DNA from: a virus
DNA: 64,000 nucleotides
Virus record (IMG/VR): IMGVR_UViG_3300042868_005134
Location: 124,001 to 188,000 of that record
Direction: 5' to 3' (one strand)
Positions 4,001 through 51,926 of the stretch are shown in pieces (the stretch's first letter is position 1; each line of letters starts with the position of its first letter). The notes below the pieces were generated by a model that was not told where the DNA came from, ran no database searches, and was given only the letters and a program-made list of their open reading frames with translations. The translations under genes were made by a program, and so were the position numbers.

Positions 4001-4375
4001 AGCGCTGGCACTAGCATCTAGCTCGGCTAGATCTAAATCAGCACGTACTACATAAGCACGATTGCTAACACCTAATAGACTATATGCTGCCTGTAAGCCA
4101 TATTCATTCTGCTCTCCAGCATGAATTGGATTGTTGCTCGCATCTGTCTTGAATAACGGATCGCCAAAAGTATCTCCAAGATCTTTTTGACTTGTTAGAA
4201 GGTAAACTTTGCCTGCGTTGGCCTTTAGTGTACCTGGAGCAGTGCCGTCTCCTGCACTGTTACTTTTGTCTTGAGGAGAGGCAACCACAATCATTGGGAC
4301 TGTGCCGGGCTCCGCTGGTGTATAAAATGATTCGTCAATTACTTTGACTTCTACGCCTGGTGAACTTAATGCCAT
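1070..4375 (-). CDS. 18: Tail sheath protein gp18, enlarged
   Basis: Contractile sheath subunit of 1,101 residues against 659 in T4. The N-terminal MALSSPGVEVKVIDES handle and the C-terminal domain (NVARLVIYLRRQLSALAKPYIFEPND ending AVEFIFIPLRLKNTGE) are typical of the sheath family. The extra length is mostly in the middle: residues about 345-560 are Ala/Thr/Val rich and include a GTGYQSGNTLKI segment like the small beta modules of the phage's fibre proteins. These additions probably decorate the outer sheath surface. Shine-Dalgarno AGGAGA and a late-promoter motif lie upstream. The gene is followed by gp19 after 28 bp. Confidence 0.92.
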   Translation of the reverse strand: MALSSPGVEVKVIDESFYTPAEPGTVPMIVVASPQDKSNSAGDGTAPGTLKANAGKVYLLTSQKDLGDTFGDPLFKTDASNNPIHAGEQNEYGLQAAYSLLGVSNRAYVVRADLDLAELDASASAPAAEPNNGTYWLDVDNTNWGIFEWNGDAATVTGGQTFTNKIPLVITDPTKVNALTGGPVSSVGKNGSYAVVAVGDDVTEPDLTTIHPMTVWYRNSSGTWVQVGTTAWDDSWTNTVLLSMAPHTSVPQWKTGDLNAPTGSVWIKTTEPNLGARWRAKRYNSTTQLFEQIDAPLYSDPTTALYKLDKSGGGANLAAGQLYVKYNTTETSPQQADFAIYRRKSAAPTAIKSSKVTASTFAGDAGVLTAVTTLAGTSVSAAATYTAVAVATVTGTGASAIATVTKTGVLTTYSSTNTTVAITTGGTGYQSGNTLKILGTALGGATPANDLTFVVSGESTSYTFDIAYTEQGSAALTNDATISFTIATPAVANAATVATAINTLLPSGSPIEASVDSQNRLQIVHEEGGDIHLLDGTNGPLAALGFAEYVPSTGNGTLNLYLDPDGDHDHVASLWEPLTYSANSNPPTSLTANGTLWYSSVVDEVDIMIHDGNDWVGYLNELPLTDPTGPLVSATKPETQIDGSPLETGDLWVDSSDTENWGTVYRFNKDLLKWFLVDKSDQSTEDGMLFADARYNTAGATSDEPATIEELLSSDFLDFDAPDPALYPKGMLLWNTRRSGFNVKEFRQNYIDVDADNVRMNDASMALYYPHRWVTVSSNQDDGSGTFGRKAQRKVVVRAIQATVNSNQEIRDEESRVFNLLACPGYPELIGELVTLNYDRGLTAFVVGDTPARLTPDATSLLAWGTNQRLALEDNDLGGVSYDEYMGMFYPWGFTSDNFGNNVVVPPSHMILRTIALNDQVAYPWFAPAGVRRGGITNATAVGYVTSEGEFDSVALNNGQRDTLYEAKINPITFLTGTGLVNYGQKTRAKAASALDRINVARLVIYLRRQLSALAKPYIFEPNDKITRDQIKSAAESLMLELVGQRALYDYIVVCDESNNTPARIDRNELYLDIAIEPVKAVEFIFIPLRLKNTGEIAALG

Positions 4376-4408
4376 ATCAGCTTCTCCTAAGGGTTCTTGT
4401 TCTAAATG

Positions 4409-4416
4409 TATTTAGT
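4409..4416 (-). promoter_or_regulatory. Late promoter motif for sheath-tube operon
   Basis: ACTAAATA on the minus strand, about 33 bp before the gp18 start and upstream of its AGGAGA site. It has the TAAATA core of the T4 late promoter. Placement gives a normal leader. Inferred. Confidence 0.5.
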
Positions 4417-4472
4417 GTATTTTGGCAAAATCTTACGCTAATACACCACTGAAAAGGGAAAGAAAAGGTGCG

Positions 4473-4480
4473 TATAAATA
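4473..4480 (+). promoter_or_regulatory. Late promoter TATAAATA before HNH gene
   Basis: An exact match to the T4 late promoter consensus, ending 4 bp before the ATG at 4485. There is no Shine-Dalgarno sequence between motif and start. If it is used, the message would be leaderless or nearly so. Confidence 0.6.
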
Positions 4481-4484
4481 CAAT

Positions 4485-4823
4485 ATGTCAAGACCGTTAT
4501 GTATTTGTGGATATAGACCAGCTGCCGTTAACTATGTTAAGAACGGTCGCACTTACTATCGTAAGAAATGCGAAAGCTGTCTAGCGGGCGGAGTAGGGCA
4601 TGGCATCCCTAAATGGTATTTGGATGGCTACCGAATGAAAAATGTCTGCGATAAGTGTGGCTTTAAAAGCAAACACAGTGAACAGTTTAACGTCTTTCAC
4701 GTGGATGGAAATCTCAATAACAGCAGGCCATTGAATCTAAAAACTGTTTGTGCCAACTGTCAGCGTACTCTAGCCAAAGAAGGCGTTAAATGGTCGCAAG
4801 GTGGGCTTCAACCAGATTTTTAA
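4485..4823 (+). CDS. Small HNH endonuclease with zinc-binding cysteine pairs
   Basis: I chose the ATG at 4485 (112 residues, MSRPLCICGY) over an in-frame TTG 63 bp upstream that has no ribosome site. Four cysteine pairs are visible: CICG, CESC, CDKC and CANC. The block FHVDGNLNNSRPLNLKTVC followed by CANCQ matches the HNH core (H, then D-G-N-xx-N, then N-L and CxxC). Such small free-standing HNH proteins are common in T4-like phages, often as homing endonucleases. It sits alone on the plus strand between the divergent sheath operon and dNMP kinase, and its last 38 bp overlap the kinase gene tail to tail. Substrate unknown. Confidence 0.75.
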   Translation: MSRPLCICGYRPAAVNYVKNGRTYYRKKCESCLAGGVGHGIPKWYLDGYRMKNVCDKCGFKSKHSEQFNVFHVDGNLNNSRPLNLKTVCANCQRTLAKEGVKWSQGGLQPDF

Positions 4824-5433
4824 TTTGAGAGAACAAGTCGTCTATTGTTCCGTTGTTATCGATTTCTAAGTCAATGCCACGGCCAATCCAGGCAGTTTCG
4901 CTAGCGTGGATTCCTAATCGTTCCATTCGCACTTTACTAATAGACCAGCTCATATTACTATGACCTTGGTTAACGTTCCACGCATCTTGATACCATTCAG
5001 GATCACTGCCGCGTACTACACGCACCACTTGTCCGCCTGCGTTCTTGATGGCGGTAATTTCATTAGGGAATCTTACATCGCTGATAACAATGTTATCCTT
5101 AGTTTTACGCATCTTATTTTCCAAGCTGGCAATCCAGATGTCATCGTGAAACCCGTTGCGGCAAACTTCTGTGCCCCATTGTTGTAAGATCCATCTAGGA
5201 GTTAGAGTGGGCTTGTTTAAGCGTTCTGCCCACCAAGGGTCAACTTGTTCGCGCCATTCACGAGCTTCTTTGGTACGACCTTCTAGTAGTGTTCTGTCCC
5301 ATCCGAACACTGCAGCAACAGCATCTTTAAGTGTGTTGGCAAAACTATCTCTTCTAAAACCATGAAAGTTTACCAAATAATCTGCGGCAGTATCTTTGCC
5401 CGAACCAATGAATCCCACGAAGCCTATAATCAT
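4786..5433 (-). CDS. 1: Deoxynucleoside monophosphate kinase (T4 gp1 type)
   Basis: 215 residues (T4 gp1 has 241). It phosphorylates dNMPs to dNDPs to feed phage DNA synthesis. The P-loop GFIGSGKDT is at residues 7-15 and is followed by the LID/NMP-binding region (WWAERLNKPTLTPRWILQQWGTE). The segment NIVISDVRFPNEITAI is a typical Walker-B-like strand of this kinase group. AGGAGA precedes the ATG. A sigma-70-like promoter lies just upstream, which fits an early gene placed among late genes. The 3' end overlaps the convergent HNH gene by 38 bp. Confidence 0.88.
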   Translation of the reverse strand: MIIGFVGFIGSGKDTAADYLVNFHGFRRDSFANTLKDAVAAVFGWDRTLLEGRTKEAREWREQVDPWWAERLNKPTLTPRWILQQWGTEVCRNGFHDDIWIASLENKMRKTKDNIVISDVRFPNEITAIKNAGGQVVRVVRGSDPEWYQDAWNVNQGHSNMSWSISKVRMERLGIHASETAWIGRGIDLEIDNNGTIDDLFSQIKNLVEAHLATI

Positions 5434-5456
5434 ACTATCTCCTGCTGATAGTATAT

Positions 5457-5485
5457 ATATTACAGGATTTTTACAATAAGGTCAA
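5457..5485 (-). promoter_or_regulatory. Putative sigma-70 early promoter for dNMP kinase
   Basis: On the minus strand TTGACC (5485-5480), a 17-bp spacer and TAATAT (5462-5457) lie about 25 bp before the kinase ATG. The -35 box matches 5 of 6 consensus bases, the -10 box only 4 of 6. The gap between the upstream small gene and the kinase is otherwise featureless. Inferred from the motif and from the early role of the gene. Confidence 0.45.
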
Positions 5486-5495
5486 TAGTGATTGA

Positions 5496-5873
5496 TTAAA
5501 CGCCGTACTTATTTCGTTTAGGTTTAGCAACTGTACTGATTTTGTTAACGCTATCTAATTCTAAACTGCGCATGTCTCCGTGATTTACATCATCGTAATC
5601 TGCGCCCACTGCTTTGGCGGCTTTTTTGAACATTTCGTTTTCAATTTCTGTATATGGGTGTACAGTTTTCCTTTTGCCATGCCAGCTTTTGGCATCAATG
5701 TCGGGTACAGTTTTGCCATCAGTAGCAGCCATGGCTTGGCCTAGTTTAAACGACACATAATCACTATTCATTTTTTCAGCATCGCCGTAAGTGCTTATAC
5801 CACGACTAGATTGACTGTGTCGCTTGGTAATTTTAGCCTGTTTAGCTTCTGAAATAATTTCTGTAACTTTCAT
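5496..5873 (-). CDS. Putative capsid-targeted internal protein (125 aa)
   Basis: I take the ATG at 5873, which overlaps the TGA of the gene before it (ATGA), rather than an in-frame ATG 12 bp upstream. The protein then begins MKVTEIISE-AKQAK. This resembles the T4 capsid-targeting sequence of internal proteins (MKTYQEFI-x-E), which gp21 cleaves after (L/I)xE; the predicted cut is after Glu9. The rest is hydrophilic and Lys-rich (AKITKRHSQSSRG ... KPKRNKYGV) with no domain I recognise. It shares its leader with the next gene upstream and with the 440-residue protein at 50604-51926. Packaging into the head is an inference from the N-terminus. Confidence 0.7.
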   Translation of the reverse strand: MKVTEIISEAKQAKITKRHSQSSRGISTYGDAEKMNSDYVSFKLGQAMAATDGKTVPDIDAKSWHGKRKTVHPYTEIENEMFKKAAKAVGADYDDVNHGDMRSLELDSVNKISTVAKPKRNKYGV

Positions 5874-6163
5874 TCGCAATTCCATTTACGCAAAGCAAGT
5901 GCCTTGCGAGTTGGTTCACCATTGGGCTTTTTCATTGGGCCGTCAACTCCGCCCATTCTAGCACAGAATGATTTACGGCGTTTAGCATCCTTACTGCCTG
6001 CTTTTAATTTACTAGGTTTAGTAGTTACTGCTGTTTGTAATTTGCTACCAGGATTTTCACGACGGTAGCTGGCAACGCCTTTGGCATTTAGGCCACCAGC
6101 TTTACTTTTACCTTCTTTTCTACGCCATGCGGCAGATTCTGAAATAATTTCACTAACTTTCAT
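5870..6163 (-). CDS. Putative capsid-targeted basic internal protein (97 aa)
   Basis: Begins MKVSEIISE-SAAWRRKEG, again a T4-like capsid-targeting leader with an IxSE site for the gp21 protease. The mature part would be strongly basic: many Lys/Arg, a conserved-looking CARMGGVDGPMKKPNG block and a C-terminal PTRKALALRKWNCE. Small proteins with this CARM...RKALALRKW ending occur in other T4-like phages, from memory and without known function. A basic protein packed with DNA is a plausible role. It starts 2 bp after the gp13 stop and overlaps the next gene by 4 bp, so it should be co-expressed late with neck protein gp13. Confidence 0.75.
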   Translation of the reverse strand: MKVSEIISESAAWRRKEGKSKAGGLNAKGVASYRRENPGSKLQTAVTTKPSKLKAGSKDAKRRKSFCARMGGVDGPMKKPNGEPTRKALALRKWNCE

Positions 6164-6165
6164 AA

Positions 6166-6930
6166 TTATCCAATCACAAATGTCATGGGCGTACCGCCCG
6201 ATACTAGCGTTTCAAGTTCTTTATCCAGTGCCGTAATTTCTTCTTTGCTGGCTGCTTTAAGGTCACTTCCGTTAAGTTGTGTGCCACCGCTTGGTCCAGC
6301 AATTTGAGCAAACTTGCTACGAGCTTCGCCTAGTATACCTTTACAAACTGCTAGACTATAATCTCTAATCCATTGCTTGGCATAAAGATCATTTATAAGG
6401 TTGTAATCAGGTCTGTAGTTGTGGCAACGAAGCATAAGTGTTTCACCGTCAACAAACGGTCTTTGTAATATTCTTAAGATATGACTTTGCTGAATCCACT
6501 GAAACTCAATATAGCTACCAAACATACGGCCAACCATTTCTTGATACTGCGCAAACATATCATAAGTGGCAATGCCGCCCATCATGGTGCTGTTTAACAA
6601 ATATGTGTTGGTATAAGCAAGGTTAAATGGTTCAAAGTTAGTGCCTGTGCCGCCACCTGTTCTAGATCCTAGCGTTCGTCTAAATACACTTTGTACAGCA
6701 ATGACTTCATCGGGTAATCTGTAATCGTTTCTGTCTTTTTCTAGCTCTAAAAACATATAACTTTCTTCAACGGCATTTGGGCTACGTTGTCTAAAGCGGT
6801 TGATAGTTTTTTCCAGGGCTGTTTCAAAGTGAATAGGGTCTAGTTCGACATCGATCATGCCATCAGCCAGCATAGTGCGGCAGTAATCGTATACTTTTTG
6901 TCTTTCAGCTTGTGGATTTGTTTCTGACAT
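6166..6930 (-). CDS. 13: Neck protein gp13
   Basis: 254 residues (T4 gp13 has 309). gp13 and gp14 form the neck that closes the filled head and connects it to the tail. The region HFETALEKTINRFRQRSPNAVEE, then YRLPDEVIAVQSVFRR, GTNFEPFNLAY, MFAQYQEMVGRMFG and KFAQIAGPSGGTQLNG is the pattern of gp13-type neck proteins of T4-like phages. GGGAGA lies before the ATG, and a late promoter half-site (AATAAATA) sits just upstream in a palindrome shared with gp14 on the other strand. Divergent gp13/gp14 keeps the two neck genes under one promoter region. The assignment rests on recalled family pattern, not a search. Confidence 0.75.
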   Translation of the reverse strand: MSETNPQAERQKVYDYCRTMLADGMIDVELDPIHFETALEKTINRFRQRSPNAVEESYMFLELEKDRNDYRLPDEVIAVQSVFRRTLGSRTGGGTGTNFEPFNLAYTNTYLLNSTMMGGIATYDMFAQYQEMVGRMFGSYIEFQWIQQSHILRILQRPFVDGETLMLRCHNYRPDYNLINDLYAKQWIRDYSLAVCKGILGEARSKFAQIAGPSGGTQLNGSDLKAASKEEITALDKELETLVSGGTPMTFVIG

Positions 6931-12998: not shown

Positions 12999-15900
12999 TT
13001 ACACGTATCCCAGGCCATTCCACGACCTACAGCTTACTCTAACATCTTTGAATATTCCAAATGTAGGATCGGTATTATATAAACTACAATCAACATATAC
13101 AGTATTATTTGTTCCATAGCTAGCCTGGTATAATAATTTAGATCCGTTGTAGTGTCTTATAAATCCATCAGTGTCATATACTATATAGAATTTCTGATTT
13201 TCATCCCATGTTGTGCCATGCGCGATTCCGGCGCCATTATTATATGTGTGGTAGTTATTCATGGTATACGGATAAGCACTATGATCAATAGAACTATAAT
13301 TAGCATCAGCTGTTGGATCTGTATTCCAACCTATCATGGCATATGATGCACCATTGTCGCCACCACCAGCAGCGGCTCGTTTACTAAACTCTATGGTACA
13401 AGGAGCACTGAATGCCTGTGTACTGTACGCTTGGCCGTTCCAACTATTGTTGTCTGCGTTTTTGGTAAAAGTCACAGTGTCGGTGCCATTATTCGACAAG
13501 GACATATTGGCGCTAAATGAATATGTAATAGTTTGATAACCAAGAAAACGTTCTTTAACGGCATTAAAGTTTTGCTGTACTTCTGCTGCTGTCAGTGCTC
13601 GACTATACAGAGAAGTGTGCGCCACTGAGCCGTTTAACCAATAATTATCGTTTAATGTTCCAATAGTGAACGGTAAAGTGGCGGCAACACCGATACCGCC
13701 TGTGTTAGAGTGTACAGCAACTCCGTTCTTATAAATTACACGAGAGCCGTCTGAGTTCAAAACAAGTCCTAAGTTGACCCAAGTATTCACAGTCACTGCA
13801 TTTCCAATATTGCCGCCAGTTGCGGCACCTGCATAATAATAAATTCCTCCACCATTTTCTATTCCAATATATGTATAGGCATTACTCTCTTGAGTACCCA
13901 TTAACTGATAACCGCTTGAGTGTGATAACGAATTAAATTTCACCCAGACAAAGAAACTTCTAGCTCCTGCGTCTACTTTGTGTGTAAATGTAATTTTGTC
14001 ATTGACACCATCAAACACAATACTTTTAATATTTTCAGTTGTATTATTGGCTCCATTGGTCAATATGCCGTGATTGTTATTACCACTTATATCAGTCCAC
14101 TGTGGGCCATCATTAAAATTTGAGTTTGGTGTAAATGTTCCACCACTTAAAAATGTATGTACAGTACTAAGTGTTCTAGTTTCTGTACCAACGGAGTAGG
14201 AAATTGTTGTTACGATGCCACCAGTGGCCCGCTGCACGCCTGGATAACGAACAATAACTACACCACTGCCGCCATCTTTAGCATGTGGTAAAGAATTATT
14301 TCCTGATCCACCACCACCTCCTCCACCAGTATTAGCAACTCCTGCAGTGGTACCATTGGCACTGCCAGTACCGTCAGCACCCCTGCCGCCGCCGCCAAAA
14401 TATCCAGTTGCTGACCCAATACTGTTAGTTACAGTAAAAGGCCCGTTGGTATAGACGCCACCGCCGCCACCACCGGCAAACCAACCTGGTGGAGATCCAC
14501 CTACACTGGCAAATTGTGGATAATATCGTCCGATGCCGCCGTTACTTGCAGTTGACGGACCGCCCCCAGTTGCTGTTCCGCCTGCGCCACCCCCGCCTGA
14601 ACCTTCGTGTGGAGCTGAATGATTGAAATCTTCAGCGATAGTTGGTCCGCCTGGCCCTCTGCTGCCGCCAGGAAAACCGTAGCCAGTGCCGCCACCGCTG
14701 TTTGTTTGTGTGGCTAGGCCGCCGCGAGACGCACCTGGATTTGAAACTCCAAAATAGTAGTCGCCCGCGCCGCCGCCGCTGCCGCCATTTTTATACACGC
14801 TGTCCGTGTAGAAGCTTTCATTGCCACCACCACCGCCTTGTGCTATAATATCGCTGAATGAGCTACTGCCACCTTGAAATCCGTGAGAATTATTTGTCGT
14901 GCCGTAGTTGCCTGTAGTTGACCCACCATAATACCTACCGCCCTGGCCTCCAGCACCCACAGTTACACTTATTCCAACTCCATTCTGAACATATTTATTA
15001 GGATGATATACCAAACCTCCGCCGCCGCCACCACCTGCAGCGCCATGACTACCACCTCCACCTCCACCTCCACCCACTACTAGCACTTCCACACCTGGAT
15101 TATTACCAAATGTAAAATAATCACTAGCAGTAAATGTGTGAATAGTATCATTGCCCGAAGTGGTTATTATTCCACCGGTGGCTTGTGGTGCTCCACGATA
15201 GCGAATAATAACTACGCCCGACCCACCAGCGCCGCCAGACTTTGAAGGGGAATAAGAGCCACCGCCGCCTCCGCCGCCAGTATTAGCAAGCCCTGCTGCG
15301 CCATCAGCACTAAAAAATGCTCCGCCGCCTCCACCCAATCCACCTATACCTTGTCTAGTTGGAGATGATGGAGAGTATGTTCCGCCAGCGCCGCCGCCGC
15401 CATAGTATGTTTGCGTTCCAACTGTGAATGTACCGCTTGTTGTGAACGTATGTACAGTGTCACCGTTAACTGAAGTTATAGTGCCTCCTGTTGCTCTTGC
15501 AACACCAGGATAACGAATAATAACTATACCACTACCGCCTTCACCACCCTTGTTATTACTATTATAATGAGATCCACCACCTCCGCCACCGCCGGTGGAT
15601 GCGCCTGCATTGCCGCCTGGTTGATTTGCGCCAGCAATGCCATCGATTGCTGGATTTATTCCTGTTGTGTCTCCAAAACCGCCGGGCCCTTCATAACTTG
15701 ATCCGCCACCACCGCCACCTGCGCCGCCATGCCCTCCTAAACCTGAACTTGGTGGATGTGTTGCTCCACCACCTCCTCCACCAAAATAAAATGGACTTAT
15801 CTGTGGATATTGACGGCCGTTGCCGCCGGTGGGTCGATTTGGTCCGCTTGCTCCGCGTTGACTGGCACCACCTCCACCTCCTGAATAATGGCTGTTGTCG

Positions 15901-17873
15901 CCGGACGCAGGATTTCCAGAATTTCCTCCAGAAAATCCTTGACCGGGTGTTCCATTGTCGACAATTCGACTACCACCGTGAGTATAACCTGAACATCCAC
16001 CGCCCGAAGCGCCAGTACCACCTATGCCACTGTTTGGAAGATATCCATAATATGAACTAGCGCCAAATCCACCGCCAATGGCAGTTATTCCAAAAATACT
16101 ACTGGTGCCGCCGTTGGTTGCTGAAATTGTAAATTGATGACCTCCTGGTTGTGGGCCTGCGCCGTCAGTTCTATAAGTACCGCCACCTGCTGGTGCGCCA
16201 TATCCGCCTGCGCCCACAGTCACTGTATAAGCAGTTCCGGGAATAACACTGATGCTGGGATTATAGAGCACTCCTCCGCCGCCGCCACCACCACCCATGT
16301 CCATTCCACCACCACCACCGCCTCCAACTACCAATGTGCTCACTGTGGTCAGTGTTCCACTAATACTAGTCGCTAGTCCAATTCCACCATTGCCACCACC
16401 ATCGGTGGCACCTGCCGATCCTGCGCCTCCAGCGCCACCGCCACCACCAGAATGATAGTATCCTGATTCTATTGCGGCTCCACCGGCATATCCTTGTCCA
16501 GGTGTGCCTGGCGCTACAGATTGTCCTTCACCTGTGCCGCCGCCTGATCCACCATTTGTTGGCCGGCCGCTGGTTGCTGTTCCGTCATATGTATTAGTAT
16601 TATTGCCGCCAGCACCTCCGGCGATGGCTGTGATACTAACAATTCCTGATCCTCCAATAGAAGAATTTCCAGCATTACTAGTATTGTCACCGTTTGAAGT
16701 GCGGCCGCTGCCGCCTTGTCCCACAGCTATATAATATGTTCTATCACGAAACATATTGTATGCACTATTATAAACTACGCCACCGCCACCACCACCTCCA
16801 CCCATTTCAAAACCGCCACCTCCACCACCTGCTACTACCAGTGCTTCTACTGTGGTAGGTCCAGATGATTTTATGTTGTTAGCGTCTAGAGACAATACTA
16901 AGTTACTGTTGCTGATAACAGTCCCGTTGGTAACAGTGGCAATTCCTTGACTGGTTAAAAAACGAACAATAACTATGCCGCTGCCGCCTTCGCCGCCTTT
17001 ATTTGTTACGTTGTAATGAGATCCACCACCTCCGCCACCGCCGGTATTTGCGCCAGCATTTCCGCCGGACGTTCCGTTTGCTGCGGGCACCGCAGAATTG
17101 GATCCATTATTGTATCCGGTGCCGCCGAGTCCTGCGATTCCGCTGTATGCAGTGCCGCCGCCGCCGCCGCCAAGTCCACCGTTGCTACCATCACCTAACG
17201 AATAGTTAGAGCCTCCACCACCACCAGCCCAATAATAGCCTGTTCCTAAAATACTGTTATAAACTCCGACACCCCCATTTGCCCTATTTGGCCCGTCGGC
17301 ACCTGCACCACCTGCACCACCGCCACCGCCTGAATAATAACTGCCGCCGCCGCCATTGCCGCCTTTATTTCCTTGACCAGCAGTTCCAGATGGCCCTATA
17401 GTAGTTGCTCCTGCTGTGTATCCTGAATTGCCGCCTCCTGATCCTCCTGCTCCACCTATGCCATAGTTTGGAAGATATCCATAATAGGAACTGCCGCCAT
17501 AGCCACCGCCAATGGCAGTCAATGATCCAAACACCGAATTGCCGCCGTTGGTTGCTGAAATTGTAAATTGATGACCTCCTGGTTGTGGGCCTGCGCCGTC
17601 AGTTCTATAAGTACCGCCACCTGCTGGTGCGCCATATCCGCCTGCGCCCACAGTCGCTACGTAAGTTGTGCCGCTTGTTACGGTAAAACTTGAATTACTA
17701 ATGACTCCGCCACCTCCGCCGCCACCACCCATGTCCATTCCACCACCACCGCCTCCAGCAACCACTAGGACTTCAACAGTTCCACTAAATTGAGGGATAA
17801 ATGTGCCCGATGTTTTAAACACCCAAACAGTGTTGCTGGTTCCAACCCGGTTAGTTCCTGAAAATGAAGCCAT
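12999..17873 (-). CDS. Giant glycine-rich fibre with LamG and C-terminal beta domains (1,624 aa)
   Basis: At least four copies of a glycine-rich domain start with LVVAGGGGGGMDMGGGG-type segments, at about residues 31, 342, 512 and 925. Each is followed by poly-Gly runs and a closing GGSGIVIVRY strand. Glycine-rich domains of this kind form polyglycine bundles at phage fibre tips (for example S16 gp38). Residues about 1,255-1,440 are LamG-like (WTDISGNNNHG ... LYSRALTAAEVQQNFNAVKERF), followed by a last beta domain ending SCRSWNGLGYV. Two repeats share 116 identical bases. The start overlaps the previous stop (TAATG). Confidence 0.8.
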   Translation of the reverse strand: MASFSGTNRVGTSNTVWVFKTSGTFIPQFSGTVEVLVVAGGGGGGMDMGGGGGGGGVISNSSFTVTSGTTYVATVGAGGYGAPAGGGTYRTDGAGPQPGGHQFTISATNGGNSVFGSLTAIGGGYGGSSYYGYLPNYGIGGAGGSGGGNSGYTAGATTIGPSGTAGQGNKGGNGGGGSYYSGGGGGAGGAGADGPNRANGGVGVYNSILGTGYYWAGGGGGSNYSLGDGSNGGLGGGGGGTAYSGIAGLGGTGYNNGSNSAVPAANGTSGGNAGANTGGGGGGGSHYNVTNKGGEGGSGIVIVRFLTSQGIATVTNGTVISNSNLVLSLDANNIKSSGPTTVEALVVAGGGGGGFEMGGGGGGGGVVYNSAYNMFRDRTYYIAVGQGGSGRTSNGDNTSNAGNSSIGGSGIVSITAIAGGAGGNNTNTYDGTATSGRPTNGGSGGGTGEGQSVAPGTPGQGYAGGAAIESGYYHSGGGGGAGGAGSAGATDGGGNGGIGLATSISGTLTTVSTLVVGGGGGGGMDMGGGGGGGGVLYNPSISVIPGTAYTVTVGAGGYGAPAGGGTYRTDGAGPQPGGHQFTISATNGGTSSIFGITAIGGGFGASSYYGYLPNSGIGGTGASGGGCSGYTHGGSRIVDNGTPGQGFSGGNSGNPASGDNSHYSGGGGGASQRGASGPNRPTGGNGRQYPQISPFYFGGGGGGATHPPSSGLGGHGGAGGGGGGSSYEGPGGFGDTTGINPAIDGIAGANQPGGNAGASTGGGGGGGSHYNSNNKGGEGGSGIVIIRYPGVARATGGTITSVNGDTVHTFTTSGTFTVGTQTYYGGGGAGGTYSPSSPTRQGIGGLGGGGGAFFSADGAAGLANTGGGGGGGSYSPSKSGGAGGSGVVIIRYRGAPQATGGIITTSGNDTIHTFTASDYFTFGNNPGVEVLVVGGGGGGGGSHGAAGGGGGGGLVYHPNKYVQNGVGISVTVGAGGQGGRYYGGSTTGNYGTTNNSHGFQGGSSSFSDIIAQGGGGGNESFYTDSVYKNGGSGGGAGDYYFGVSNPGASRGGLATQTNSGGGTGYGFPGGSRGPGGPTIAEDFNHSAPHEGSGGGGAGGTATGGGPSTASNGGIGRYYPQFASVGGSPPGWFAGGGGGGVYTNGPFTVTNSIGSATGYFGGGGRGADGTGSANGTTAGVANTGGGGGGGSGNNSLPHAKDGGSGVVIVRYPGVQRATGGIVTTISYSVGTETRTLSTVHTFLSGGTFTPNSNFNDGPQWTDISGNNNHGILTNGANNTTENIKSIVFDGVNDKITFTHKVDAGARSFFVWVKFNSLSHSSGYQLMGTQESNAYTYIGIENGGGIYYYAGAATGGNIGNAVTVNTWVNLGLVLNSDGSRVIYKNGVAVHSNTGGIGVAATLPFTIGTLNDNYWLNGSVAHTSLYSRALTAAEVQQNFNAVKERFLGYQTITYSFSANMSLSNNGTDTVTFTKNADNNSWNGQAYSTQAFSAPCTIEFSKRAAAGGGDNGASYAMIGWNTDPTADANYSSIDHSAYPYTMNNYHTYNNGAGIAHGTTWDENQKFYIVYDTDGFIRHYNGSKLLYQASYGTNNTVYVDCSLYNTDPTFGIFKDVRVSCRSWNGLGYV
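16106..16221. repeat. 116-bp exact direct repeat, copy 1
   Basis: Identical base for base to 17540-17655, 1,434 bp away. It encodes the stretch from VGAGGYGAPAGGG to TISATNGG in one glycine-rich domain. The surrounding sequence is similar but not identical, which points to recent duplication or gene conversion. Confidence 0.9.
17540..17655. repeat. 116-bp exact direct repeat, copy 2
   Basis: Second copy of the repeat at 16106-16221, in the same orientation and the same gene. Recombination between the copies would remove 1,434 bp (478 codons) in frame. Confidence 0.9.
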
Positions 17874-40739: not shown

Positions 40740-41924
40740 TTAACTGAACTTGACAGCGGCAGCAGTGATAGCAACCTTGCCTAAGTAGTCAGCAGCGTTA
40801 CCAAGAGATGACGCTGTGTTTGTTAACTCAACATAACCATAACGTGTCATGAATGAAACGACTGGTTCGAATGTTGATGGATCTAATACAACACCACTGC
40901 TCATCAACGGAACATATGGGCAATAAAATGCTGCCGCATCTGCTTCGCTAGAACCTTTGTAGCCGATTAGAACGTTGTCAAATCCGCCGCTTTCTAAAGC
41001 GTATGTGTTAACATAAATCTTCATAGCGTTGTTCAATGTACCAACAAACTTGGTGTTTGTAGGTGCTTCGAATGTGCCTTCTGTAGTACGAGCAAACGCA
41101 CTAGTTGTAGCACTTTGAAGAATTGTCAATGCCATTGGACTGATAACAGCCCAGTTACCTGCGCCACGACGTGTACGTTGAGCAATCAAGTTAGCAACAC
41201 GGTTGATTTGAACTGCCAATGCGGCATGTTCGTCACCAACGAATGTAGCAACACCAGATACTGAGCTCTGATCGTATGTCTGTGTAGCTGCACCAGCTAA
41301 AGTGCTTAAAGAAGCAAGAACTTCTTGGTCGATTTCAGCTGTGATCTCTTGAGCAAGAGCAGCCATGATTTCTGCTTCGATGTCAATACCTTGTTGGGCT
41401 TGTGCATCTTGAGCAGCTTCAAATGTCCAGCGAGCTGATAGCTTACGTGTCTTAGCTTCAACTGTTTGTTTCAAGATTTGAATGCTCATTCTGTTACCAG
41501 CAGCACCTTCTAAGTTGGCTGTAGTAGCTGCCTTAGGAGTTCCTGAAACTTGGTTACCAGAATAAGATTCAGCAATCTTGAATGGGCTGAATGCTTCTTC
41601 ACCAGCAACAACTCCAGCACCTGTAGATGAATCGCTATAGCGAACACGTAAAGTGTGGATTTGTCCAACTGGACCGGTCATTGGCTGAACGCCAACCAAC
41701 TCGTTAGCAATAACGGTTGGCATAACACGACGGATCACTGGAAGGATCACGCGGTTAAGTGTAGCAACGTTACCTGCTGAAGTTGCGCCTGCTGACGCAC
41801 TTTCTGCTAGATACTTGCGAGTGTTTTCTAATGTTACAGCCATCGATGTTTTACGATTGCCTTGTAGGCCTTCTAATAGGGCTTCCTTGGTTTCGTTCCA
41901 ACGGCTTGATAGTAGTTCTGACAT
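40740..41924 (-). CDS. 23: Major capsid protein gp23
   Basis: 394 residues (T4 gp23 has 521). It forms the hexamers of the head shell. A likely propeptide of 41 residues ends KYLAE-SASAG, an LxE site for the gp21 protease, as in T4 where gp23 is cut after Glu65. Then come PVIRRVMPTVIANELVGVQPMTGP, typical of gp23, and MSIQILKQTVEAKTRKLSARWTFEAAQDA. The C-terminal FMTRYGYVEL is also characteristic. AAGGAGA lies before the ATG, the scaffold gene is 11 bp upstream, and a strong terminator follows. Confident. Confidence 0.95.
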   Translation of the reverse strand: MSELLSSRWNETKEALLEGLQGNRKTSMAVTLENTRKYLAESASAGATSAGNVATLNRVILPVIRRVMPTVIANELVGVQPMTGPVGQIHTLRVRYSDSSTGAGVVAGEEAFSPFKIAESYSGNQVSGTPKAATTANLEGAAGNRMSIQILKQTVEAKTRKLSARWTFEAAQDAQAQQGIDIEAEIMAALAQEITAEIDQEVLASLSTLAGAATQTYDQSSVSGVATFVGDEHAALAVQINRVANLIAQRTRRGAGNWAVISPMALTILQSATTSAFARTTEGTFEAPTNTKFVGTLNNAMKIYVNTYALESGGFDNVLIGYKGSSEADAAAFYCPYVPLMSSGVVLDPSTFEPVVSFMTRYGYVELTNTASSLGNAADYLGKVAITAAAVKFS

Positions 41925-41935
41925 TTATTGTCTCC

Positions 41936-43030
41936 TTAAATTTTTAATCCAGCGAGTCGACGAATATCAACAATATTGTTGTCATTCTCGCTGCTACTTG
42001 CGCTGTTAGGAATTTTATTTCCTGTTACTTCCTTTGCCTCTACTAGTGCCTTACGTTTTTGTGGAGCTTCTCCAGCGATTACAGCCGGAAGGTACTTGTC
42101 AAAACTATTTTGTAATTTTGATGTCTGTACACTTTCAAGAAGCTCTGTCATAATAGCTTTTTGTCCGTTGGACAAAGGTGCTACTAATTCCGTCATAACT
42201 TCTTGACGTTCTTTGCTCTCCACTAGAGCCTTAATTTTGTGTTCTTTGCTTTCTGCGAGTTGTCTAGCTTGTGCTGCATCATTTTTAGCTGTTGCAACTT
42301 CCAACTCTTTTTGGTTTATAACCTTGAGCAATTTTGCTGTTTCAGATTTCTCTGAAAGGTAGCTTGTTTGATATTCATTACTAAATGCTTCAAACAATTT
42401 GCGACCGAAGTCGTTTCTACGTGCTGTTTCAATATCTTCTTTTAGTTGACCAATCTCTTGGGTAAGAGTTTTTTCAACTGCAGATTCTACCAAACTAGCT
42501 GCACGCTTAACAAATTGTTCTTTGACCTTAGTGAATGCCTCTCGGCCGTCACGGATCAATCGCACTTTTGTTTCTGCAAGATCTTGTTTGTCTGTATGGA
42601 ATTCTGCGATTTCCTGTGCTAGAGCTTCTACAACGAACTGTTCAAGTTTAATAAACTTGTCAGCCATTTGTTTTTGATCTTCATGTAAATCTTTAACTTC
42701 CGTAGCTAGCTGACGCACAACAAATTCTTTAATTTTTTCTGCGTCTTTCTTGGCTTTCACCACTACTTTTGCTTTTGCTTCGGCTAATTGATTACGATCT
42801 TCAACAAATTGAGCGATTTCTTCGCGTAGTTGGTCACCCAACATGCGATCAACAGCTTCTACCATGACAGACTTGTCATGCTCGTAGCGTTGTGCGAATT
42901 CTTCTCTTAGTTGTTGAGTAACTTGTGTACGATTTTCGTTGATACGAGAATCCCAAGCTTTCTCAATTTCTGCTCTTACATCTTCAGAAACCACATTGTT
43001 TTCGAATAGACTTTTTAGTGCTTCCAACAT
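41936..43030 (-). CDS. 22: Prohead core scaffold protein gp22
   Basis: 364 residues, strongly charged and helical, with a long predicted coiled coil (residues about 20-290, rich in Glu, Lys, Gln, Ala, for example EKAWDSRINENRTQVTQQL). This matches gp22, the main internal scaffold of the T4 prohead (269 aa), which is degraded by gp21 during maturation. The position between gp21 and gp23 is the T4 order. The C-terminus IVDIRRLAGLKI is short and basic. AGGAGA precedes the ATG. Confidence 0.88.
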   Translation of the reverse strand: MLEALKSLFENNVVSEDVRAEIEKAWDSRINENRTQVTQQLREEFAQRYEHDKSVMVEAVDRMLGDQLREEIAQFVEDRNQLAEAKAKVVVKAKKDAEKIKEFVVRQLATEVKDLHEDQKQMADKFIKLEQFVVEALAQEIAEFHTDKQDLAETKVRLIRDGREAFTKVKEQFVKRAASLVESAVEKTLTQEIGQLKEDIETARRNDFGRKLFEAFSNEYQTSYLSEKSETAKLLKVINQKELEVATAKNDAAQARQLAESKEHKIKALVESKERQEVMTELVAPLSNGQKAIMTELLESVQTSKLQNSFDKYLPAVIAGEAPQKRKALVEAKEVTGNKIPNSASSSENDNNIVDIRRLAGLKI

Positions 43031-43043
43031 GTGTTTCTCCTCT

Positions 43044-43670
43044 TTATTGGAGTCCGCTTATTAATCTTAATAAGCTCTCTTTGAGATATTTCTGCGCCTT
43101 AGGGTCGCCCTGCACTTCCTTCGCTATACGAAGGCTACTATAACCTCCCTTATTATTCATAAGGTGTTCATAGATTGGTGTTGGGTACGCTCCCGGAGCA
43201 CTTGGTTGAGCTACCACATCTACTGTGATAATCTCAAAATCTGACACTTCACCGGATCCGTCTTCTTTGACGTTACCGGATCCGCGACTGCTTACTCCTA
43301 ACTTAACTCCGCTTTCCAACATAGTTTTCACTAAGTTGCCCATTGGAGTCGGTAGGATTTTTAATTTTCCATAACCGTTTGGGCCATCCATCCACATATT
43401 TGTAATCATGTGGCTCACACGGTCAAGGTTAATTTTTAGGTCATCTGGATGATCCACTTCGCCGAGTACTGAGTATCCACCTTCAAGTTGATCGTTCAGG
43501 GTCTTGACAGCCCTGTCGATTTCATTAACAGGATAAACACGCTGATTTTGATTCCTAACGCCGCCTTGGATACAAATACCTTTCATATAAAGGTTCTTGC
43601 CTCCTTCGCCGTCGGATTCAACGACCATTTTTGCTTGGTCGAAACTCAGGTTTTCACGAAGATAATTCAT
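43044..43670 (-). CDS. 21: Prohead maturation protease gp21
   Basis: Serine protease that cuts capsid and core proteins after (L/I)xE. 208 residues, close to T4 gp21 (212). The catalytic candidates are His74 in GEVDHPDD and Ser127/128 in GVSSRGSG; Asp151 in VDVVAQPSAPGA lies in a conserved strand. RVYP (45-48) also fits the family. It lies between the acidic core protein and gp22, with short gaps (10 and 13 bp). Its likely substrates in this window are gp22, gp23, the core protein, and three proteins with MKVxxIxSE leaders. Confidence 0.92.
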   Translation of the reverse strand: MNYLRENLSFDQAKMVVESDGEGGKNLYMKGICIQGGVRNQNQRVYPVNEIDRAVKTLNDQLEGGYSVLGEVDHPDDLKINLDRVSHMITNMWMDGPNGYGKLKILPTPMGNLVKTMLESGVKLGVSSRGSGNVKEDGSGEVSDFEIITVDVVAQPSAPGAYPTPIYEHLMNNKGGYSSLRIAKEVQGDPKAQKYLKESLLRLISGLQ

Positions 43671-50395: not shown

Positions 50396-50611
50396 TTGTC
50401 TAGATCTGACATCGAAGAGTTGGTTAACAGTTTAGAATTAGATACAAAACAAATAAAAGATGAAATCTTTCGCATAAGTTGGTACATGCGAGGCGGAGTA
50501 AGCAGTCAGGATCTAATGCACGTTTACGGCTACGAGGATAGGCAGATCATGAATGAGATTATAAAAGAAAATATTGAAATTACCAAAAATAGCCGTATGG
50601 CTATTATTTAA
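50396..50611 (+). CDS. Small protein following gp26 (71 aa)
   Basis: Only a TTG start (50396) is available in this frame after the upstream stop, 11 bp past the gp26 stop. The protein contains the block IFRISWYMRGGVSSQDLMHVYG (residues about 24-45), which I recall from small proteins next to gp26 in other T4-like phages, and a final NEIIKENIEITKNS helix. Hub assembly partner or tail assembly chaperone is plausible but not shown. The 3' end overlaps the convergent 440-residue gene by 8 bp. Start uncertain since no good ribosome site is seen. Confidence 0.6.
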   Translation: MSRSDIEELVNSLELDTKQIKDEIFRISWYMRGGVSSQDLMHVYGYEDRQIMNEIIKENIEITKNSRMAII

Positions 50612-51926
50612 TTTCGTCGTAACCATAGACGCCGTATTTTTTCTTAGGGTCGTCCTGTATTTTTAAAGTAGGATCAGGAATGCCGGCAACACCAACCCTA
50701 GCTTTTATGTCATTAAGTTTGTCGTTGCCTACTAGACGATATCCATTTTCATCACTAATTTGTTGATTATTAATGTAAAGTTTCTTGCCAACCCATTGAA
50801 TATTCATACCATTTGTAGCTTGTCTTGCGCCATCGGCAGCATCACCAGTTGGTGGTTTTACTGCGGTCTTACCAGGTAGTGGACCATCTAGTAGTCCAGC
50901 TTCCTGTAATCCTTTTTCTAGTAAATCAATAGCGGCTGCTGTCAATGCCCCTGTTGGTTCAGTAATTGCTCTTACCAAAGAACTATTTAAAAATTCTTTA
51001 CCAGCACTGGTACGCATGAATATCAAGAAAGCTGGGGCCGCAGGCCCCATTTCAATTAATTTAGAAATACCTTTTGCCACGTTAGTAGGCAAGCTAACAA
51101 ACATACCTAAATATTTTGTTGTTGTAATGCTGGCGCCGCCCAGTGTAGCTGCACCTGTGGCAATACCTTTAAACATGCCTGACATTGCGCCAAAGAATTT
51201 GCTGGCCACTCCAGTATTTAAGGCAACACCAATGGCCAATTCTCCTAACAGTTTCTTTCTTAACTGTTGATACTTGTTATAGGCTTCTTGCTCTGACATT
51301 TTTCCAAAAGGAGAATCTTTGCCAGCTTTATAATCTTGGTAGTCTTCCTCTAACACGGACAAATCCACGTAGTATTCTCTTACAAATTCTAAACCCACAA
51401 CAGTTTTTATCACAGTCATGGCTACATCGGGTATAAATCCCATCCTTGCCTGGGCTGCTGCCTTCATGGAAGCATTGGCACCACGCATTTTTAAGTAGGC
51501 TTTAATTTTTTCAAACCCTACTTTACTGTCAGGGTCAAATTTTCTCAAGTTTATTTTTTCTGTTTTAGCTACTGTTTTTTCTAATTGGGCAAGACGCTCA
51601 GTAACTTTCTTTTTTAACCACTTGCCGCCTTTACTTTGCCATGACTTAGGAATAAGTTTAAGTATTCCTGCTTTACCCAGCTTGGCAAAGCCAGGTGTAA
51701 ACAATAGTACAGCATCTATGAATAGATCATTCCATTCGTCGTCAGTAATTGATTCAGGATCTTGGTTGTATTTGCCAATGAATTTGTATATTTCGTAGGC
51801 ACTCCAAGCACTCATGCCTACAGAGATTGCGGTAATTATTGTACCTATTCCAATACCTGCTATTACAAGAGGTACGGCTTCATTCAATGATTCAGTTCTT
51901 TCAGAGACTATTTGATGGACTTTCAT
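50604..51926 (-). CDS. Hydrophobic protein with capsid-targeting leader (440 aa)
   Basis: Begins MKVHQIVSE-RTESLNE, the same kind of leader as the two small genes at 5496-6163 and similar to T4 internal proteins; IVSE and SLNE are both possible gp21 sites (after Glu9 and Glu16). The rest is unlike a soluble internal protein. Hydrophobic stretches occur near residues 18-48 (PLVIAGIGIGTIITAISVG), 72-95, 160-180, 225-285 (Gly/Ala rich) and 290-310. The C-terminal 80 residues are hydrophilic (GMNIQWVGKKLYINNQQISD ... KKKYGVYGYDEIK). I know no family for it. A late promoter motif lies 6 bp before the ATG. It may be a head-borne, DNA-co-injected protein that enters the host membrane; speculative. 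Confidence 0.75.
   Translation of the reverse strand: MKVHQIVSERTESLNEAVPLVIAGIGIGTIITAISVGMSAWSAYEIYKFIGKYNQDPESITDDEWNDLFIDAVLLFTPGFAKLGKAGILKLIPKSWQSKGGKWLKKKVTERLAQLEKTVAKTEKINLRKFDPDSKVGFEKIKAYLKMRGANASMKAAAQARMGFIPDVAMTVIKTVVGLEFVREYYVDLSVLEEDYQDYKAGKDSPFGKMSEQEAYNKYQQLRKKLLGELAIGVALNTGVASKFFGAMSGMFKGIATGAATLGGASITTTKYLGMFVSLPTNVAKGISKLIEMGPAAPAFLIFMRTSAGKEFLNSSLVRAITEPTGALTAAAIDLLEKGLQEAGLLDGPLPGKTAVKPPTGDAADGARQATNGMNIQWVGKKLYINNQQISDENGYRLVGNDKLNDIKARVGVAGIPDPTLKIQDDPKKKYGVYGYDEIK

Follow-up and report, generated by a model that had tools for sequence, protein, structure and literature searches.

Two small adjacent genes in the window (the whole 64,000-nucleotide stretch that was analysed, part of a 383,411-base virus record surveyed stretch by stretch) open with the leaders MKVTEIISE and MKVSEIISE, and these nine residues are most probably (probability roughly 0.83) a capsid-targeting propeptide of the T4 type, which would be cut by gp21 after Glu9 and would deliver unlike cargoes into the head. 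The leader, its conservation, the unlike cargoes, the protease and a module boundary at the predicted cut were all observed directly. Following the T4 scheme, during head assembly the leader would dock each protein to the scaffold core within the prohead, the gp21-type protease would then cut after Glu9 at the motif [ILV]xE and remove the leader, and the cargo would be retained in the head and probably enter the host together with the DNA. One accessory cassette would comprise both window genes, which encode a basic DUF6321 module and a second, unlike cargo.

As the sequence-only reading of this DNA had stated, both open reading frames are present, on the minus strand (Table 1). The full divergence that it described after the shared start was also observed, since the two leaders differ at one of nine residues (2 of 27 bases in the DNA) and no BLAST similarity was detected past them. 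The start of the 125-residue gene overlaps the stop of the 97-residue gene as ATGA. A further in-frame ATG lies upstream in the 125-residue gene (MELR-MKV...), but the MKV start is favoured because of the ATGA overlap and because a stop codon stands directly 5' of MKV in some relatives (contigs L234 and L283).

Table 1. Coordinates of the leader genes, the predicted leaders and the associated head and neighbouring genes. Positions are those of the window unless marked as record positions; a slash marks a predicted cut.
Feature	Position	Strand	Description
97-residue gene	5870..6163	-	Leader MKVSEIISE and 88-residue basic DUF6321 module; open reading frame, PF19846
Leader MKVSEIISE of the 97-residue gene	6137..6163	-	Predicted gp21 cut after Glu9, ISE/SAAW
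125-residue gene	5496..5873	-	Leader MKVTEIISE and 116-residue cargo without known family
Leader MKVTEIISE of the 125-residue gene	5847..5873	-	Predicted gp21 cut after Glu9, ISE/AKQA
Deoxynucleoside monophosphate kinase	4786..5433	-	PF21448, phrog_139; downstream of the pair
Neck / head-tail adaptor gene	6166..6930	-	phrog_211, E=1.1e-31
Major capsid protein gp23	40740..41924	-	phrog_138, E=1.3e-100
Probable scaffold/core protein (gp22 position)	41936..43030	-	Between protease and gp23; phrog_10922 (unknown function)
gp21-type prohead protease (Peptidase_S77), presumed leader peptidase	43044..43670	-	PF03420, E=7.4e-27; phrog_207 head maturation protease, E=4.1e-58
440-residue protein with hydrophobic stretches	50604..51926	-	Leader MKVHQIVSE
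83-residue protein	record 71197-71448		Leader MKVRDIITE
236-residue protein	record 273602-274312		Leader MKAHQIVDE; HELIH motif

The interpretation of these starts as T4-like capsid-targeting leaders, likewise made from the letters alone, held up in that the T4 architecture, a gp21-type protease, an invariant Glu9, unlike cargoes and leader proteins in the virions of phages PA5oct and S-SM1 were all found. The T4 leader had been given as MKTYQEFI-x-E, and the T4 record confirmed MKTYQEFIAE at the start of both ipII and ipIII, which then differ. Like the window pair, T4 IPII and IPIII are small basic proteins encoded by adjacent genes with one leader and unlike remainders, in a genome with gp21. 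The T4 and window leaders share a tail of the form [ED][FI]IxE ending in a gp21 site (ISE in both window leaders), but the window leader comprises nine residues, mostly MKVxEIIxE, whereas that of T4 comprises ten. The first ten residues of T4 IPIII are enough for packaging; within this leader, residues 4 and 7 are important in targeting and residues 8 and 10 in processing, and the T4 gp21 cleaves behind [LI]xE (PMC9026906). Regarding function, T4 IPI inhibits a type IV restriction enzyme, and on at least one wild E. coli strain the phage requires IPIII (PMC9026906; PMC9391042). This genome differs from T4 in having five or more cargoes, metallopeptidase-like and membrane-like ones included, and the mature parts showed no significant similarity to T4 IPI-IPIII (best blastp E=0.09-0.11).

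A scan of IMG/VR gave at least 120 stretches with the motif MKVxEIIxE, compared with 25 for the scrambled control MKVxIIExE (complete scan). Among the 124 matches listed, 104 open an open reading frame of at least 45 residues, and these frames fall into 29 clusters unlinked by BLAST, which bears on the earlier proposal to search relatives for such leaders on unrelated proteins. The scrambled motif opens 15 frames, about ten of them unlike, and some of the 29 clusters are chance. An example is the set of MKVNEIITEKFIEALNKG... proteins, which we take to be ArdC-like; these match the pattern but were set aside as chance rather than leader cargo, and four such contigs lack the protease. The largest leader cluster among the matches listed has 21 members, two of which are relatives of the 440-residue protein. 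That protein has a second possible cut behind its leader (SLNE/A, residues 13-16). Additionally, a second [LIV]xE site (LNE or LDE) is retained at residue 15 in leader-bearing proteins of contigs L033, L057, L069, L082, L112 and L135, and resembles the redundant propeptide cuts described for phiKZ (PMC9026906).

Relatives of the 125-residue protein in IMG/VR (93 found, 80 kept) retain a leader of the form M[KR]xx[ED][IFVL][ILV]xE, down to 61% overall identity. At other positions K/R, V/A/I, E/D and I/F/V alternate, while Glu9 is present in 29 of 29 distinct nine-residue leaders, and some copies of the family are fused behind VAE/A or MAE/A. The 125-residue protein gave no Pfam, PHROG or PADLOC match and no credible sequence relative in the PDB; AlphaFold modelling of the family reached a pLDDT of 54, and no fold was drawn. 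The motif KYGV, at or near the C-terminus, is common to the 440-residue and 125-residue leader proteins (KRNKYGV, KKKYGV) and also occurs in relatives of the latter; it is possibly a second small tag, or chance.

The 97-residue protein is a clear member of DUF6321 (PF19846; E=2e-23, 83.3 bits against a Pfam gathering cut-off of 28.5), a family that includes the cyanophage T4-GC119 proteins, and it also matched phrog_4689 (4.7e-31); no PADLOC match was obtained. The basic character ascribed to it earlier was borne out by a pI of 10.6, and the 88-residue module after the predicted cut has a pI of 10.9 and a charge of about +17. DUF6321 has two invariant cysteines and relatives in 537 phage records, mostly cyanophages, and was named in no paper found by literature search. 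Foldseek searches with the DUF6321 model gave no credible PDB match, the named ones among the strong viral matches being DUF6321 members, and a PDB sequence search gave no relative.

In 80 IMG/VR relatives, DUF6321 was found behind diverse short leaders (MKVHEIISE/SAAW, MRAHEFIDE/SAAW, MKTLKQFIE/SAAW), at the end of polyproteins after a linker ending in [LIV]xE (ELLDE/SAAW, ELYE/TAAW), and in leaderless copies that start directly as M(AK)TAAW (MAKTAAW, MKTPAW). The window DUF6321 is a free unit behind its nine-residue leader, whereas in cyanophages the domain forms the C-terminal end of long multi-domain proteins and in Pelagibacter podophages, and in phages such as L209, it is a small leaderless protein. 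For the 57 cases with E at the junction, the residue two positions before it was L (36), I (8), V (8) or F (3) in 55. Because the start of DUF6321 coincides with an [LIV]xE junction in both the leader and the polyprotein forms, the predicted protease cut falls at the beginning of the unit. The AlphaFold model of the 97-residue protein (mean pLDDT 83.8; 50 for residues 1-10 and 84-90 for the body) agrees with a module boundary at this predicted site.

These junctions bear on the alternative that survives best, namely that the leader acts as a permanent helix, which binds scaffold or capsid, brings proteins to the head and stays on them. Such a helix is compatible with the T4 data, where targeting and processing residues are separable (PMC9026906), and cleavage in this virus is a prediction from sequence. 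However, the last residue of the leader is an invariant Glu, and [LIV]xE is retained at polyprotein junctions that have no leader, which would be expected of a protease site but not of a docking helix; the permanent helix is accordingly judged improbable.

For the cleavable propeptide, the window also supplies the presumed peptidase, closest to the proteases of Sinorhizobium phage Phosso (60.7% identity), Agrobacterium phage Atu_ph07 and Pseudomonas phage PA5oct. The gp23 protein contains LAE/S (KYLAE/SASAGATSAGN), a putative cut site that fits the same protease, and the scaffold/core protein, its role judged from its position, is the presumed partner of the leader. Beyond this genome, the PF03420 protease was present on 12 of 18 leader-bearing long contigs (ArdC-like set left out), and one of the six protease-less contigs, G009, breaks off beside gp23. 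Contig L164 (261 kb) carries the leaders MRATEFVTE, MNINDIITE and MRASEFVSE in a row with no gp21 or gp23 detectable, and may be incomplete or may use a diverged protease. Most of the DUF6321-polyprotein contigs tested were without protease and gp23. A general rule by which the leader is present with gp21 and absent without it was not upheld, as L164 has leaders without a detected gp21.

The neck gene precedes the leader pair by 2 nt. The neck and kinase-like genes of PA5oct adjoin without a pair between them and here the pair sits between the two, which is consistent with an accessory cargo cassette or slot at this position. Two further genes of the window were observed, one for an HNH-like endonuclease with a weak family match (4422-4823, opposite strand, between the sheath and kinase genes) and one for a 1,624-residue protein, rich in glycine, that has repeated modules and long runs of GGGG and is perhaps an adhesin (12999-17873).

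Head genes are also neighbours of DUF6321 elsewhere. In Pelagibacter phage Eistla, scaffold and capsid flank the DUF6321 gene, and L209, where no gp21 was detected, has leaderless DUF6321 genes in the vicinity of its major head protein; these positions tie the domain to head genes in unrelated phages. The very basic DUF6321 protein would probably be a DNA-associated internal head protein.

Virion evidence comes from relatives. The PA5oct (Wroclawvirus) record marks proteins detected by ESI-MS/MS, and two of those that were positive in virions, EST35_0150 (MKINDIITE/G, encoded next to the portal) and EST35_0238 (GTG start, (GTG)KIKDILVE/S), have leaders similar to those of the window; the gp21 is related, but the cargoes are unlike the window pair. 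With a looser leader pattern, drawn up after seeing the list, 5 of 8 PA5oct genes were MS-positive compared with 92 of 505 overall (p=0.006), and with a stricter pattern 2 of 3 (p=0.087); the MS list also holds enzymes, ribonucleotide reductase among them. Virions of cyanophage S-SM1 were found to contain the cytidylyltransferase GC190 (PMC3037559). This T4-GC190 protein opens MKKFSAFLNE/A, a longer, T4-like leader on a cargo that differs from the window pair; this genome encodes a cytidylyltransferase-like protein opening MKLRELFES.

It is conceivable, at long odds, that the proteins are non-virion late proteins whose leader addresses another site, e.g. the membrane or a replication compartment. 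The presence of two relatives of the 440-residue protein, with its hydrophobic stretches, in the largest cluster of listed matches would suit such an address, but the leader is short, contains an acidic residue and is not a signal peptide, and DUF6321 genes adjoin head genes in Eistla and L209.

Delivery to the head by a shared propeptide is also in keeping with the other copies in the 383-kb genome, where at least five unlike proteins, the window pair and three others, carry the nine-residue leader. No BLAST similarity was found among the five beyond the leader, and the look of a cargo family, with the same nine residues on unlike remainders, that was first recognised in the pair extends to the genome. 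Among 416 called genes of at least 70 residues, the window pair has the most alike first nine residues of any gene pair (7 of 8 after Met). The pattern MK[VA]x[EDQN]I[IVL]xE, generalised from leaders already seen in the genome, was matched by four of these genes and had no match in 200 shuffles of all N-termini or at 1,843 internal methionines. The 83-residue MKVRDIITE gene was left out of this set because of a spurious overlapping frame on the opposite strand. In the other three genome copies, and in relatives, the leader is written in different synonymous codons, so that the constraint acts on the peptide.

A recent partial duplication of one gene start, with the shared residues reflecting common descent and no targeting function, would account for the few base differences within the pair and for within-genome leaders being closer in DNA than expected when nine genomes are re-paired (p=0.003, without correction for kinship), but the sequence data make it unlikely, with barely a residual chance, as three more genome leaders match in protein and not in synonymous codons and the pattern is retained in relatives down to 61% overall identity and occurs on PA5oct virion proteins. 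Concerted evolution of leaders within a genome is not claimed, the signal being at the DNA level only and from few genomes.

Further leader-like starts were observed outside the window. At record positions 69767-71448 (L006), an adjacent leader pair places the 83-residue protein beside the MRFNEFKIVLKE protein, a GDSL hydrolase plus peptidoglycan-binding protein, and MRFREFKIT opens a 596-residue protein at record positions 4001-5791. A second cargo-like block (record 268488-276239, L014) contains the starts MKRFVSVIKE, MKIREITMKE, MKAHQIVDE and MKLRELFES; the MKAHQIVDE protein is metallopeptidase-like, that opening MKLRELFES is the cytidylyltransferase-like one, and a ferritin/Dps-like protein lies alongside.

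Since the mature parts of the internal head proteins of T4-like phages differ from one protein to the next, such proteins are difficult to identify. With a leader that can be recognised in sequence, the proteins that uncultured giant phages probably package could be listed, and DUF6321, a family in over 500 phage records, gains a testable role. Altogether, the set of proteins that these phages package and inject is probably larger and more varied than is known. In a broader reading, for which we consider the chances even, the large T4-like phages of this group would use a cleavable address tag of 9-10 residues, which passes between numerous unrelated proteins (DUF6321, metallopeptidase-like, cytidylyltransferase, peptidoglycan-active and membrane-like proteins), to load a broad effector cargo into the head for injection, and the form in which a module travels, leader-tagged, polyprotein or leaderless, would depend on the head-processing machinery of the phage.
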